A stretch of 12,997 bases of DNA from an uncultured Bacteroidales bacterium (GTDB lineage: Bacteria; Bacteroidota; Bacteroidia; Bacteroidales; UBA932): contig CAMOVV010000011.1 in the NCBI GenBank assembly GCA_946627685.1, forward strand, positions 1 through 12,997, read 5' to 3'. Positions 1,464 through 4,897 of this stretch are shown piece after piece; the stretch's first letter is position 1; the number at the start of each line of letters is the position of its first letter. The translations under genes were made by a program, and so were the position numbers. The notes beneath the pieces were generated by a model, which was given only the letters and a program-made list of their open reading frames with translations, did no database searches and was not told the origin of the DNA.

Positions 1464-2426
1464 ATGTCAGTTCCGCTTCTTATCCTGATACTTGTCGCAG
1501 GCCTTCTGCTGGTGGTTTTCGGCGCGAATTATCTCGTTGAAGGCGCCTCGGCAATAGCCAGAAGGGCCGGCATAAGCGAGTTCGTCATCGGTCTCACCAT
1601 CGTGGGAATCGGCACGTCCCTCCCGGAGATGGTCGTCAGCTTCATAGGCGCGATTGAAGGAAATTCAGCCGTATCTGTCGGAAACATAGTTGGTTCCAAC
1701 ATATTCAACGTCCTTCTCATCCTCGGAGTCGTCGGCCTTATATGCCCCATAGGCATCACCAAAGACAACATCAAGAAGGATATCCCCATCAATATCGGGG
1801 TCACGGTCCTTCTAATTCTGCTGGGATTCAACCGCGACCTGTTCGGTTTGGGTGAAAATACCCTCAGCCGGATCGACGGCCTCGTATTCCTCGCCCTTTT
1901 TGCCCTCTACCTATATTTCTCCTTCAAAAATTCCCCTGCGACGCAGGACTCCCCTTCCGGTCCTCCCCCCATGAAGACGGTCCTTGCCATCCTCGCCGTC
2001 CTCGGCGGCCTTGCAGGCCTTGTTTTTGGCGGCAGAACCTTCATGTGGGCGGCCGAGAACCTTGCCAAAGCCCTGGGAATGAGTGACAAATTCATAGCCG
2101 TCACCATCCTTGCCGGCGGCACTTCCCTTCCCGAGCTGGCGGCCTCCGTCGTTGCGGCCTTGAAACACAAAGACCAGATGGCGCTTGGAAACATCATAGG
2201 TTCAACCGTTTCCAACGTTCTCTTCATTCTGGGAGGCTCCGCCCTTATCCATCCCCTCTCCCTCGATGCGATGAGCTATATCGACATGGGAGTCTTCCTT
2301 CTCAGCTCCCTCCTCCTCTTTACGTGTGCCTTCGCCGGAAAGAAAAACAAGCTGGACCGCTTCGACGGAACGTTTTTCCTCCTGGTCTTCGCGGCATATA
2401 TGGCCTGGCTCGTAATTAATTTGTAA
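1464..2426 (+). CDS. CaCA-family Na+/Ca2+ exchanger (YrbG-like calcium/sodium antiporter)
   Basis: This inner-membrane antiporter of 320 residues belongs to the Ca2+:cation antiporter family, which usually couples Na+ or H+ entry to Ca2+ export. Two inverted alpha-repeats are clear. Alpha-1 has GIGTSLPE (48-55) followed by GNIVGSNIFN (73-82). Alpha-2 has GGTSLPE (218-224) followed by GNIIGSTVSN (242-251). By analogy with the NCX_Mj structure, the ion-binding residues should be E55, N82, E224 and N251. About ten hydrophobic segments are visible, with a short polar loop around residues 155-170 linking the two halves. In alpha-2 the usual SNIFN-type segment reads STVSN, a mild departure. The gene starts 53 bases after rlmD and ends 23 bases before the cysteate synthase-like gene, so co-transcription with the latter is likely. 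Ion specificity cannot be decided from sequence. Confidence 0.92.
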   Translation: MSVPLLILILVAGLLLVVFGANYLVEGASAIARRAGISEFVIGLTIVGIGTSLPEMVVSFIGAIEGNSAVSVGNIVGSNIFNVLLILGVVGLICPIGITKDNIKKDIPINIGVTVLLILLGFNRDLFGLGENTLSRIDGLVFLALFALYLYFSFKNSPATQDSPSGPPPMKTVLAILAVLGGLAGLVFGGRTFMWAAENLAKALGMSDKFIAVTILAGGTSLPELAASVVAALKHKDQMALGNIIGSTVSNVLFILGGSALIHPLSLDAMSYIDMGVFLLSSLLLFTCAFAGKKNKLDRFDGTFFLLVFAAYMAWLVINL

Positions 2427-2449: not shown

Positions 2450-3733
2450 ATGAGATTTACACCCACCAAGTACACCCTCGTGAACGTTTCGGACGGCCAT
2501 ACCTTCGACGATGAGGGCTGGTCCCTTTCCGATCCCGCAGCCAAGTCCCCTTCCCTTGTCCGCGCAGTGTATCAGAACCGTCTTTTCGAGCCCGGCTCCC
2601 CGCGTCGCGGGCTGTACAAATATGCCGACTGGCTTCCCGTGAAGAGGATGCTCCGCGGCTCCCACGCCCCCGTAACCTACAGGAGCAAGGGCCTCGCCGC
2701 CTTCCTCGGCATGGAGAACCTCTACATCACCTTCTCCGGTTACTGGCCCAAGATAGGCGCCAAGATGGAGACCTGCACCTTCAAGGAGACGGAGGCTTTC
2801 AGCGTCTGCGCCAGAAGGCCCAGGAATGACAAGCACGTGCTTGTGGTCCAGAGCGCCGGCAACACCGCAAGGGCTTTCGCCAGGGTCTGCTCCGACAACG
2901 ACATTCCTGTTGTCATCTGCATTCCCCAGGACAATGTCAGCGACCTTTGGTTCCTGCGCAGGCTGAAATCTTGCGTGAAGGTGATAGCCACGCCCCACGG
3001 GACCGACTATTTCGACGCCATCACCCTCGGCGAAAAGCTCTGCAAGGATCCGAGGTATCTTGCCGAAGGAGGGGCCAAAAACGTCGCCAGACGCGACGGA
3101 ATGGGTACGACGGTACTCAGCGCCGTCGAGAAGATTGGAAGGATTCCTGACGCATATTTCCAGGCCGTAGGAAGCGGTACTGGCGCGATTGCCGCCTGGG
3201 AAAACAACCTCAGGCTGATTGAAGACGGCCGTTTCGGAAAGAACAAGATGAAAATTTTCGTCTCCCAGAACGTTCCCTTCACCATAATGTACGATTCCTG
3301 GAAAGCGGGTTCCCGGGAGCTTCTTCCCCTGGCCCCCGAAGATTCACGCAGGAATGCGGAAGTCATCCTCGCGAAGGTGCTGTCCAACAGGAAACCGCCT
3401 TACAGTCTCGCCGGAGGCCTTTTCGACACCCTCAAAGACTCGGGCGGAGACATGTTCAAGGTGACAAACGACGAGATTGTCTATTGGATGCTCCAGTTCT
3501 TCAACACCGAAGGGGTGGATATCTTCCCCGCCGCCGCCACTGCCGTGGCTTCTCTCAGCAAGGCCCTGGAAGAAGGGAAGGTGGGGCCTGAAGACACCGT
3601 CATGCTCAATGTCACCGGCGGAGGAATGCTGAATGCGACAAAGGCCGGATTCTCGCTGAAAGAACCCGACCTCGTACTCAGTCCCGACCTCCCCTACGAA
3701 GAGGTTGTGGCCGCTGTTGACAAGCTATTTTAA
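2450..3733 (+). CDS. Cysteate synthase-like PLP enzyme (threonine synthase paralog)
   Basis: This 427-residue, fold type II PLP enzyme is of threonine synthase ancestry. K112 in CTFKETEA is the likely PLP Schiff-base lysine, SAGNTARAF (135-143) the substrate/phosphate loop, and GSGTG (241-245) the cofactor phosphate-binding turn. Several blocks match what I recall of Methanosarcina cysteate synthase rather than ordinary ThrC: WLPVK (61-65), FSGYWP (95-100), GGAKNVARRDGMGT (207-220), FQAVGSGTG (237-245), NRKPPYSLAGGL (313-324) and LNVTGGG (386-392). Cysteate synthase makes L-cysteate from O-phospho-L-serine and sulfite. In methanogens it feeds coenzyme M synthesis; in some Bacteroidota cysteate is the headgroup precursor of capnine-type sulfonolipids. 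The usual N-terminal motifs of bacterial ThrC are absent. An N-terminal CxxC pair that I recall in the archaeal enzyme is also absent. No fatty-acyltransferase partner lies in the window. A general threonine synthase label is the fallback. Confidence 0.8.
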   Translation: MRFTPTKYTLVNVSDGHTFDDEGWSLSDPAAKSPSLVRAVYQNRLFEPGSPRRGLYKYADWLPVKRMLRGSHAPVTYRSKGLAAFLGMENLYITFSGYWPKIGAKMETCTFKETEAFSVCARRPRNDKHVLVVQSAGNTARAFARVCSDNDIPVVICIPQDNVSDLWFLRRLKSCVKVIATPHGTDYFDAITLGEKLCKDPRYLAEGGAKNVARRDGMGTTVLSAVEKIGRIPDAYFQAVGSGTGAIAAWENNLRLIEDGRFGKNKMKIFVSQNVPFTIMYDSWKAGSRELLPLAPEDSRRNAEVILAKVLSNRKPPYSLAGGLFDTLKDSGGDMFKVTNDEIVYWMLQFFNTEGVDIFPAAATAVASLSKALEEGKVGPEDTVMLNVTGGGMLNATKAGFSLKEPDLVLSPDLPYEEVVAAVDKLF

Positions 3734-4897
3734 TCCTTCCTCCTCCTCCCGGAAGGCTTCTTTCGTCGCCACCGGATTGGCGTAGATTCTGAGGAATATG
3801 TCGCGGAGCTCCTCCCTGTTGAGAGTGGGCTCCGCTTTGTCAAGCTGCTTCTCCGTGTATTCGGTGAAGGCTTCCAGCTCCTGCGGGGTGTATTTGTCGG
3901 CGAACCTGTAGCTGTGGTTGGCCAGGTCGTAGCCCATGTAGTTGGTGTTCCACAGCTTGTATCCTTCGATGACCCTCTTGTCCACGGCGTGGCGGATGGC
4001 CTGGTAGCGGTCGTTTTTCTGGTCGCAGTAGGAGGCGTCCTCCACTTCTTTCTCATTGAGGGGCTCACCGATGTTGAGATGGACGTTCCCCTTCTGCTGG
4101 GTAATGCCTACAAGGATGCTGTGGAGGTCTTCGTTTTCCCCTTTGACGTATTTTTGGGTGCGCGAAATCAGGATTTCGCGGGCCTTGAGGATGTCGCAGG
4201 GCTCATACTCGTAGGAGATGCTGAGAGGCACGATGTGGAGCTCCATGAAGTTCTCCGTGAAAGACTTGCTGCCGCTCATGTCAAGCATCTTCAAAAGTCC
4301 CTGCTCGGTGGTGTCGATGCCGTTTTTGGTCCTTCCCTGCCTCTGCGCGAGCCAAATCGAGCTCTCGCCCCCGGAGATGGTCTTCCTTATGTATTTGGAG
4401 AGCATTCCGGAGAAAAGGTAGAGTTCCCTCGCTGAAATCCCCCGGATCACCTTTATCATCCTGTTCGACCTCAGAAGATATTCCACCGTCTTGCTGGACA
4501 GGAGGTTGCTCCCCACGGCAATCTGGCTCAGCGGAATGCCGTTCTGGTAGAGGGCATACTGGGTGATTGCGGGATCCAGGATGATGTCCCTGTGGTTGGA
4601 CATCATGAGGAATTTGGTATCCAGGTTCTTTATGTTGTTGATGCCGTCGTATGAGAAGTTGTGAATGGTGGTGTCAATGTTCTATTTGATGGCCTTTGAC
4701 ATCACTATTAGCTGGAACTCATCGATGCTGCGGATGCTTTTGAGGGCGTTCTTCAGGAAGTCGGGTTCCTCATCGGGAAATACGTATTTGGAAATGACCG
4801 GTACCATCGGGTGGTCGGCCACCTTTCCAAGCGCCTGTACGGCCTCTTCGTCGCTGTACGGGCTGATGCTTTCGAATTCCTTTGATTCTTCCGTCAT
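3725..4897 (-). pseudogene. Glycerolipid acyltransferase (PlsC-like, Bacteroidales type) interrupted by an in-frame amber codon
   Basis: One reading frame encodes about 390 residues, the normal size for this Bacteroidales 1-acyl-glycerol-phosphate acyltransferase-like family. It is split by TAG at codon 72 (4682-4684) into a 71-residue head (4682-4897, starting MTEESKEF) and a downstream part. The frame is identical on both sides and family-like sequence continues directly after the stop (NIDTTIHNF), so there is no indel. The catalytic box is NHRDIILD (101-108), followed by the QRQGRTKNG segment (185-193) in place of the usual glutamate-containing QREGR. The first ATG pair after the stop (codons 98-99, 4606) lies just before the NHRD box, so a re-initiated 293-residue product (3725-4606) would keep the catalytic motif but lose the N-terminal region. 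CAG to TAG is the simplest mutation. The gene ends in TAG itself, arguing against recoding. Family assignment is confident; exact substrate and whether the gene is dead are not. Confidence 0.8.
4682..4684 (-). other. In-frame amber (TAG) codon inside the acyltransferase
   Basis: The minus strand reads AAG GCC ATC AAA TAG AAC ATT GAC: the frame is continuous before and after the stop. A glutamine codon (CAG) is one transition away. Possible explanations are a real nonsense mutation, a consensus or assembly error, or suppression. Confidence 0.9.

Follow-up and report, generated by a model that had tools for sequence, protein, structure and literature searches.

A probable archaeal-type cysteate synthase gene in an uncultured herbivore-gut Bacteroidales lineage, and a candidate further cysteate synthase in the order

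In 2022 Liu et al. reportedly described CapA of Capnocytophaga as cystathionine-beta-synthase-like. According to a 2023 review (PMC10191378), CapA catalyzes the same reaction as the archaeal-type cysteate synthase, the sulfonation of phosphoserine, is only distant kin of that enzyme, and is replaced in Alistipes and Odoribacter by a homolog of the archaeal synthase. In A. finegoldii, SulA catalyses the condensation of cysteate with acyl-ACP; Lys281 has been proposed as the residue that separates SulA from serine palmitoyltransferase (PMC9304779). SDRs of A. finegoldii and of C. gleum have been shown to reduce 3-ketocapnine (PMC11211663). Cysteate is the sulfur-bearing unit from which sulfonolipids, a class of membrane lipids, are built. 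According to the introductions of PMC11211663 and PMC9304779, sulfonolipids influence host inflammation as well as the development of choanoflagellates.

The stretch of DNA analysed here (the window, 12,997 nucleotides) belongs to an uncultured Bacteroidales bacterium, whose assembly comprises 324 contigs and 1.67 Mb and is 65.6% complete, with a contamination estimate of 2.09%. An unbroken ORF of 427 codons starting with ATG occupies exactly positions 2450-3733 of the plus strand and is the single match of its kind in the assembly. A sequence-only reading had proposed that this ORF encodes a cysteate synthase rather than a threonine synthase; the ORF is present as claimed, and its matches are far beyond chance (TIGR03844, E = 1.4e-128; PDB 9k3c, E = 6.6e-158).

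By each sequence test that was run, the gene (2450..3733, +; PLP fold type II) is a cysteate synthase of the archaeal type. In the comparison of TIGRFAM/NCBIfam models that the sequence-only reading had suggested, the protein scored 429.1 bits with the cysteate synthase model TIGR03844 (cut-off 324.9), whereas the threonine synthase models stayed far below their cut-offs (at best 58.5 of 303 bits, with NF006050; 40.7 of 167.1 bits with TIGR00260). The only Pfam match was the general PALP domain (108.5 bits). The nearest solved protein, PDB 9k3c ('Cysteate synthase'), was aligned by phmmer over residues 3-427 with 529 bits, compared with at most 51.9 bits for solved threonine synthases. In a tree of 92 rows the window protein fell into a 33-row clade with 9k3c (support 100/100) that contained none of the 13 Bacteroidales thrC rows or of the three solved threonine synthases. 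The tree was built without archaeal sequences, and the archaeal tie is the match of the TIGR03844 model in Methanosarcina acetivorans, the only one of 14 control genomes to pass the cut-off. Also omitted from the tree were L082 and L084, which are weak thrC matches of genomes G009 and G011 with starts resembling threonine dehydratases, and L078, L080, L253 and L257. An AlphaFold2 model of the protein had a mean pLDDT of 81 and a pTM of 0.83, residues 277-316 being mostly below 50. Models, solved relative and tree thus decided the choice in favour of cysteate synthase, as did the pathway company described below. The expectation that such a protein would often be auto-labelled threonine synthase was not borne out: among the best 120 of 7,999 homologs nine carried a name, and all nine were called 'cysteate synthase'.

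The motifs are in line with this assignment. The four blocks cited in the sequence-only reading are all in the translation, and their conservation was assessed by aligning the window protein to 25 homologs (74-89% identical): FSGYWP (residues 95-100; 2732..2749, +) has three of six positions invariant, GGAKNVARRDGMGT (residues 207-220; 3068..3109, +) 12 of 14, FQAVGSGTG (residues 237-245; 3158..3184, +) eight of nine, and RKPPYSLAGGL (residues 314-324; 3389..3421, +) six of 11. Lys112 (codon 2783..2785, +), located in the sequence FKETEA, is invariant in all 26 rows and aligns with the lysine in the FKD motif of threonine synthases of known structure; it is the predicted PLP (Schiff base) lysine and would thus be catalytic. 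FQAVGSGTG occupies the place of VGNAGN of threonine synthases and, judged from the fold family, is the predicted PLP-phosphate loop. The window protein has PLP fold type II in common with threonine synthase (thrC; TIGR00260, NF006050), but the motifs FKDRG, VGNAGN and NPxRxEGQKT of that enzyme are replaced: relative to three solved chains, FKDRG has become FKETEA, GNAGN has become GSGTG, and the GGAKNVARRDGMGT block takes the place of the NPxRxEGQKT strand (N-P-x-R-x-E-G-Q-K-T). With the TIGR03844 enzymes of Methanosarcina and the Alistipes and Odoribacter homologs, by contrast, the protein shares near-full length and the conserved motifs; it differs from them in its host, an uncultured herbivore-gut member of the Bacteroidales, and no biochemical difference was seen. 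The notion that such an enzyme would be new in Bacteroidota has been overtaken by the literature: since an archaeal-type synthase is already on record for Alistipes and Odoribacter (PMC10191378), the window gene adds to a kind known from gut Bacteroidota.

The further proposal of the sequence-only reading, that the organism produces sulfonolipids, depends on the next enzyme of the pathway. Same-genus genomes encode a SulA protein of about 420 amino acids; the one examined (L058) matched PDB 7u7h with 574 bits and 28eh ('cysteate-C-fatty acyltransferase') with 548 bits. The former is taken to be A. finegoldii SulA, because its sequence fits the Lys281 primer of PMC9304779. In A. finegoldii SulA numbering, lysine was found at positions 281 and 251 in 74 of 75 aligned SulA copies or pieces, the 75th being a fragment that ends short of both positions. 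Among 12 same-genus genomes, each at least 90% complete, ten had the synthase above the cut-off and the same ten had SulA; G002 and G006 lacked both. Of 26 named relatives having the synthase, 24 had SulA (E <= 1e-90), and in two SulA was not found at this threshold. The two nearest relatives, G259 and G270, both had SulA, in the latter split over two contigs. Across 247 sampled Bacteroidales genomes (the order sample; synthase E <= 1e-50, SulA E <= 1e-90) the synthase was found in 74, SulA in 183 and both in 71; SulA thus occurred in 71/74 genomes with the synthase versus 112/173 without it (Fisher 2.7e-8, kinship ignored). The three exceptions were G053, G101 and the window's own incomplete assembly, in which searches with SulA and with L002 found no SulA. 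Because a third of that genome is missing, the absence says little. The producer claim is supported by the relatives: SulA/CFAT with Lys281 accompanies the synthase there (10/12 genus genomes, 24/26 named), and for the window organism the claim rests on those relatives.

L002 was considered as a SulA and rejected. By reading of the seven PF00155 matches in the own assembly it is the only AOS-like protein, and the NCBIfam search, run for L002 alone among the seven, identified it as glycine C-acetyltransferase.

The distribution of SulA bears on two other explanations. A divergent threonine synthase, making threonine in a lineage that often has no thrC, would belong to the same superfamily and might be expected to give weak threonine synthase matches such as those noted above. 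Apart from the synthase gene's own weak match, a search of the own assembly, 66% complete, yielded no thrC, an outcome that the sequence-only reading had listed against itself, and seven of the 12 genus genomes had none above the cut-off. This carries little weight, because the assembly is incomplete and only five of the 12 near-complete relatives have a thrC above the cut-off, all five also carrying the cysteate synthase. Besides the failure of every threonine synthase model to approach its cut-off, the coexistence of both genes in these five genomes argues against the explanation. Moreover, the two relatives without the synthase (G002, G006) are likewise without a thrC match. The distribution of the gene therefore follows that of SulA and not that of threonine synthesis. 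We consider a threonine synthase very improbable. Alternatively, cysteate could be made for another end than sulfonolipid, e.g. sulfopyruvate or sulfolactate metabolism. Archaeal cysteate synthase homologs feed coenzyme M, and SulA was not seen in a few of the genomes that have the synthase. Against such a role stand the presence of SulA in 71 of the 74 order-sample genomes with the synthase, the lack of SulA in the two genus members that lack the synthase, and the close proximity of the two genes (within about 1 kb) in two genus members, G001 and G011. A different destination of the cysteate appears very improbable. We estimate the probability that the window gene is an archaeal-type cysteate synthase serving the sulfonolipid pathway at roughly 0.9.

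sulA was not found within the flanks (at most 5 and 6 kb) of 20 order-sample and 26 named synthase loci. sulA itself has a regular neighbour in the lineage. An SDR gene follows directly downstream on the same strand, the matches being less than 100 bp apart, at 24 of 25 named loci (L095:611-1462, minus strand, is one example among sulA loci L092-L115), and likewise at eight of ten genus loci, one of these SDRs being just 28% identical. In the order sample an SDR was found within 600 bp downstream of sulA at 4/20 loci from genomes with the synthase and at 0/20 from genomes without it. By analogy with the characterized reductases this SDR is a good candidate for the 3-ketocapnine reductase. In carrying SulA with Lys281 and an SDR, here an adjacent one, the relatives of the window organism resemble A. 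finegoldii, with its SulA/CapB/CFAT pathway (PMC9304779) and CapC/KCR reductases (PMC11211663). They differ in arrangement: the verified reductase genes of A. finegoldii are unclustered with cfat (PMC11211663), whereas here the SDR gene comes after sulA.

Two side observations may be added here. G001 (L052, L062) and G004 (L053, L058) each encode, along with Lys281 SulA, a serine palmitoyltransferase (Spt) that exceeds the cut-off of 640 bits, with 667 and 648 bits, and G007, G008 and G012 had an Spt-like protein just under the cut-off; sphingolipids and sulfonolipids may be mutually exclusive, according to the review cited above (PMC10191378). A protein of about 360 amino acids with glyoxalase-superfamily domains was encoded at 7/40 loci of the new enzyme described below, 7/75 sulA loci and 0/46 synthase loci (20 order-sample, 26 named); examples are L241:830-1924 (+), L122:1373-2443 (-) and L138:2987-4099 (-), and it also occurs in L047 and L062.

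No known pathway genes adjoining the synthase gene were found within the window. Upstream lies a calcium/sodium antiporter gene (1464..2426, +; TIGR00367, 224.5 bits). Downstream and convergent with the synthase gene is a PlsB/PlsC-like acyltransferase gene (3725..4897, -), which matched PlsB weakly (18.2 bits) and forms a single reading frame with one in-frame stop, giving the ORF pieces 4682-4897 and 3725-4606; it is 86% identical to the L009 homolog over 386 residues. In the L009 relative the acyltransferase is intact, and the stop in the window is either a sequence error or a real loss. The antiporter homolog was present at the synthase loci of 24/26 named relatives, 7/10 same-genus genomes (own excluded) and 0/20 order-sample genomes, and the acyltransferase homolog at 23/26, 6/10 and 0/20, respectively. 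Since conservation of both neighbours is limited to the lineage, a link of either to cysteate was dropped, and we do not count the antiporter, a lineage-conserved neighbour, among the pathway genes. The same neighbours bear on the suggestion that the gene entered the assembly by contamination and the organism lacks it. The assembly is fragmented and only 66% complete, but the contamination estimate is low, the flanking genes adjoin the synthase in nearly all named relatives, and the window protein nests among same-genus proteins in the tree. We regard contamination as scarcely credible.

For an enzyme of the archaeal type serving sulfonolipid synthesis, a role that is very likely for the window gene, we infer the following course from homology. 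The enzyme would bind O-phospho-L-serine through the PLP-lysine Lys112; elimination of phosphate would yield aminoacrylate, and addition of sulfite would yield L-cysteate. From this cysteate and an acyl thioester, 3-ketocapnine would then be formed by SulA/CFAT, the product of a gene at another place in the genome. Its reduction to capnine would fall to the SDR that the relatives encode next to sulA, and a putative N-acyltransferase would complete the sulfonolipid.

Of the 183 SulA genomes in the order sample, 112 were without TIGR03844. Twenty sulA loci were picked from such genomes, and in three of them (L118, L121, L122) a threonine-synthase-like PLP enzyme adjoins sulA, with an SDR next in L118 and L122 and one gene further in L121. 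The enzyme of L122 (L122:3654-4874, -) was under all NCBIfam cut-offs (NF006050, 183.9 bits, cut-off 303; TIGR03844, 120.1 bits), and among the 120 matches listed for it the named homologs were called 'pyridoxal-phosphate dependent enzyme' or 'threonine synthase'. A second representative is L231:7989-9311 (+), and the 41 further loci are L118, L121 and the rest of L207-L246. An N-terminal CxxC...CxxC ribbon is present in 37 of the 43 enzymes. At E <= 1e-60 the enzyme was found in 45 of the 247 Bacteroidales genomes; 41 of the 45 had SulA and none had TIGR03844. Of the 183 SulA genomes, 71 accordingly carried TIGR03844 alone and 41 the new enzyme alone; none carried both, and 71 carried neither (Fisher 5.6e-11 for the split, kinship ignored). 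Thirty-three families had one enzyme and 26 the other, family f14 alone having both. In f14, the synthase of G026 (L162) falls into a 100/99 clade of otherwise window-genus rows, without a settled place there, and the new enzyme is present in two further genomes of f14; gene transfer or swap is a possible explanation of this pattern.

The surroundings of the new enzyme were examined in 43 of the 45 genomes (G061 and G128 were left out). sulA was located within about 8 kb at 13/43 loci from nine families, and at least one of cysH, cysD, cysN and cysQ within the same distance at 18/43; five loci had both sulA and a cys gene, 26 had at least one of the two and 17 had neither, several of these on short contigs. 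At 102 control loci around TIGR03844 genes or sulA there was no cys gene, the controls being shorter (mean 4.0 to 11.2 kb versus 13.6 kb). They comprised TIGR03844 loci (20 order-sample, 26 named and 11 genus including the own) and sulA loci (20 in synthase genomes, 25 named). The gene order is sulA-cysH-enzyme in L215, L216 and L246, sulA-cysH-symporter-enzyme in L237, and cysH-cysD-cysN-symporter-cysQ-enzyme in L236 and L241. One representative of each cys product passed its NCBIfam cut-off (CysH 278.7 bits, cut-off 154; CysD 444.9, 195; CysN 562.8, 336.1; CysQ 259, 228.8), as did the divergent CysH of L213, L215, L216 and L246 (224 to 232 bits). The symporter was under the NCBIfam DASS cut-off, yet it passed those of Pfam CitMHS and Na_sulph_symp.

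Its fold and its place beside sulfite-making and cysteate-using genes make the new enzyme a good candidate for a further cysteate synthase, one not recognised so far. Another match above the thrC cut-off was present in 29 of the 45 genomes, so in these the new enzyme is not the sole thrC candidate. The other 16 had no other thrC above the cut-off, and seven of them (G013, G062, G086, G116, G121, G175, G204) had sulA near the enzyme. The tree joins TIGR03844 with the new enzyme weakly (83/72) in what was flagged as a long-branch join, and for this reason a common origin of the two is not claimed. In the 71 SulA genomes with neither enzyme, cysteate may possibly come from a CapA-type enzyme. Taken together, it appears probable that Bacteroidales make the cysteate of sulfonolipids by interchangeable enzymes, either the archaeal-type synthase or the new enzyme, the latter a further separate class with its own sulfate-to-sulfite-to-cysteate module. 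Its genes often form clusters that begin with sulfate activation (cysH, cysD, cysN, cysQ and an anion symporter), or with just cysH, and end with the enzyme and sulA.

CysH (E <= 1e-20), which forms sulfite, was found in 144 of the 183 SulA genomes of the order sample (52 + 30 + 62) and in just five of 57 genomes without SulA, TIGR03844 and the new enzyme. In the genus sample CysH passed the cut-off of 154 bits in one of 12 genomes, two others having weak matches (49.6 and 32.1 bits), and the 66%-complete own assembly had no match. Across most of the order the formation of sulfite thus goes hand in hand with sulfonolipid genes, an association that does not hold for the gut lineage of the window. 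This lineage therefore needs another sulfite route, and its sulfite may come from outside. In the open-access literature sulfonolipid, sulfite and cysteate were not found treated together.

The 26 named relatives, all Bacteroidales or Bacteroidia MAGs (72-92% identity), place the host. For seven of them a source is stated, namely omasum, rumen or horse faeces (goat, roe deer, yak, horse), and the RUG names of relatives presumably denote rumen genomes; names of the AS10, SUG, SRR, UW_MP and UBA types give no source. No rumen sulfonolipid producers were named in the titles and abstract openings of the open-access literature on sulfonolipid and rumen. The findings single out a little-studied, uncultured group from the foregut of ruminants and the gut of herbivores as likely makers of sulfonolipids. 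Beyond this lineage, 112 of the 183 SulA genomes have no TIGR03844, and in some of these an alternative enzyme lies beside sulA and cysH; the lack of TIGR03844 in a genome that has sulA is therefore no reason to count it as unable to make cysteate.
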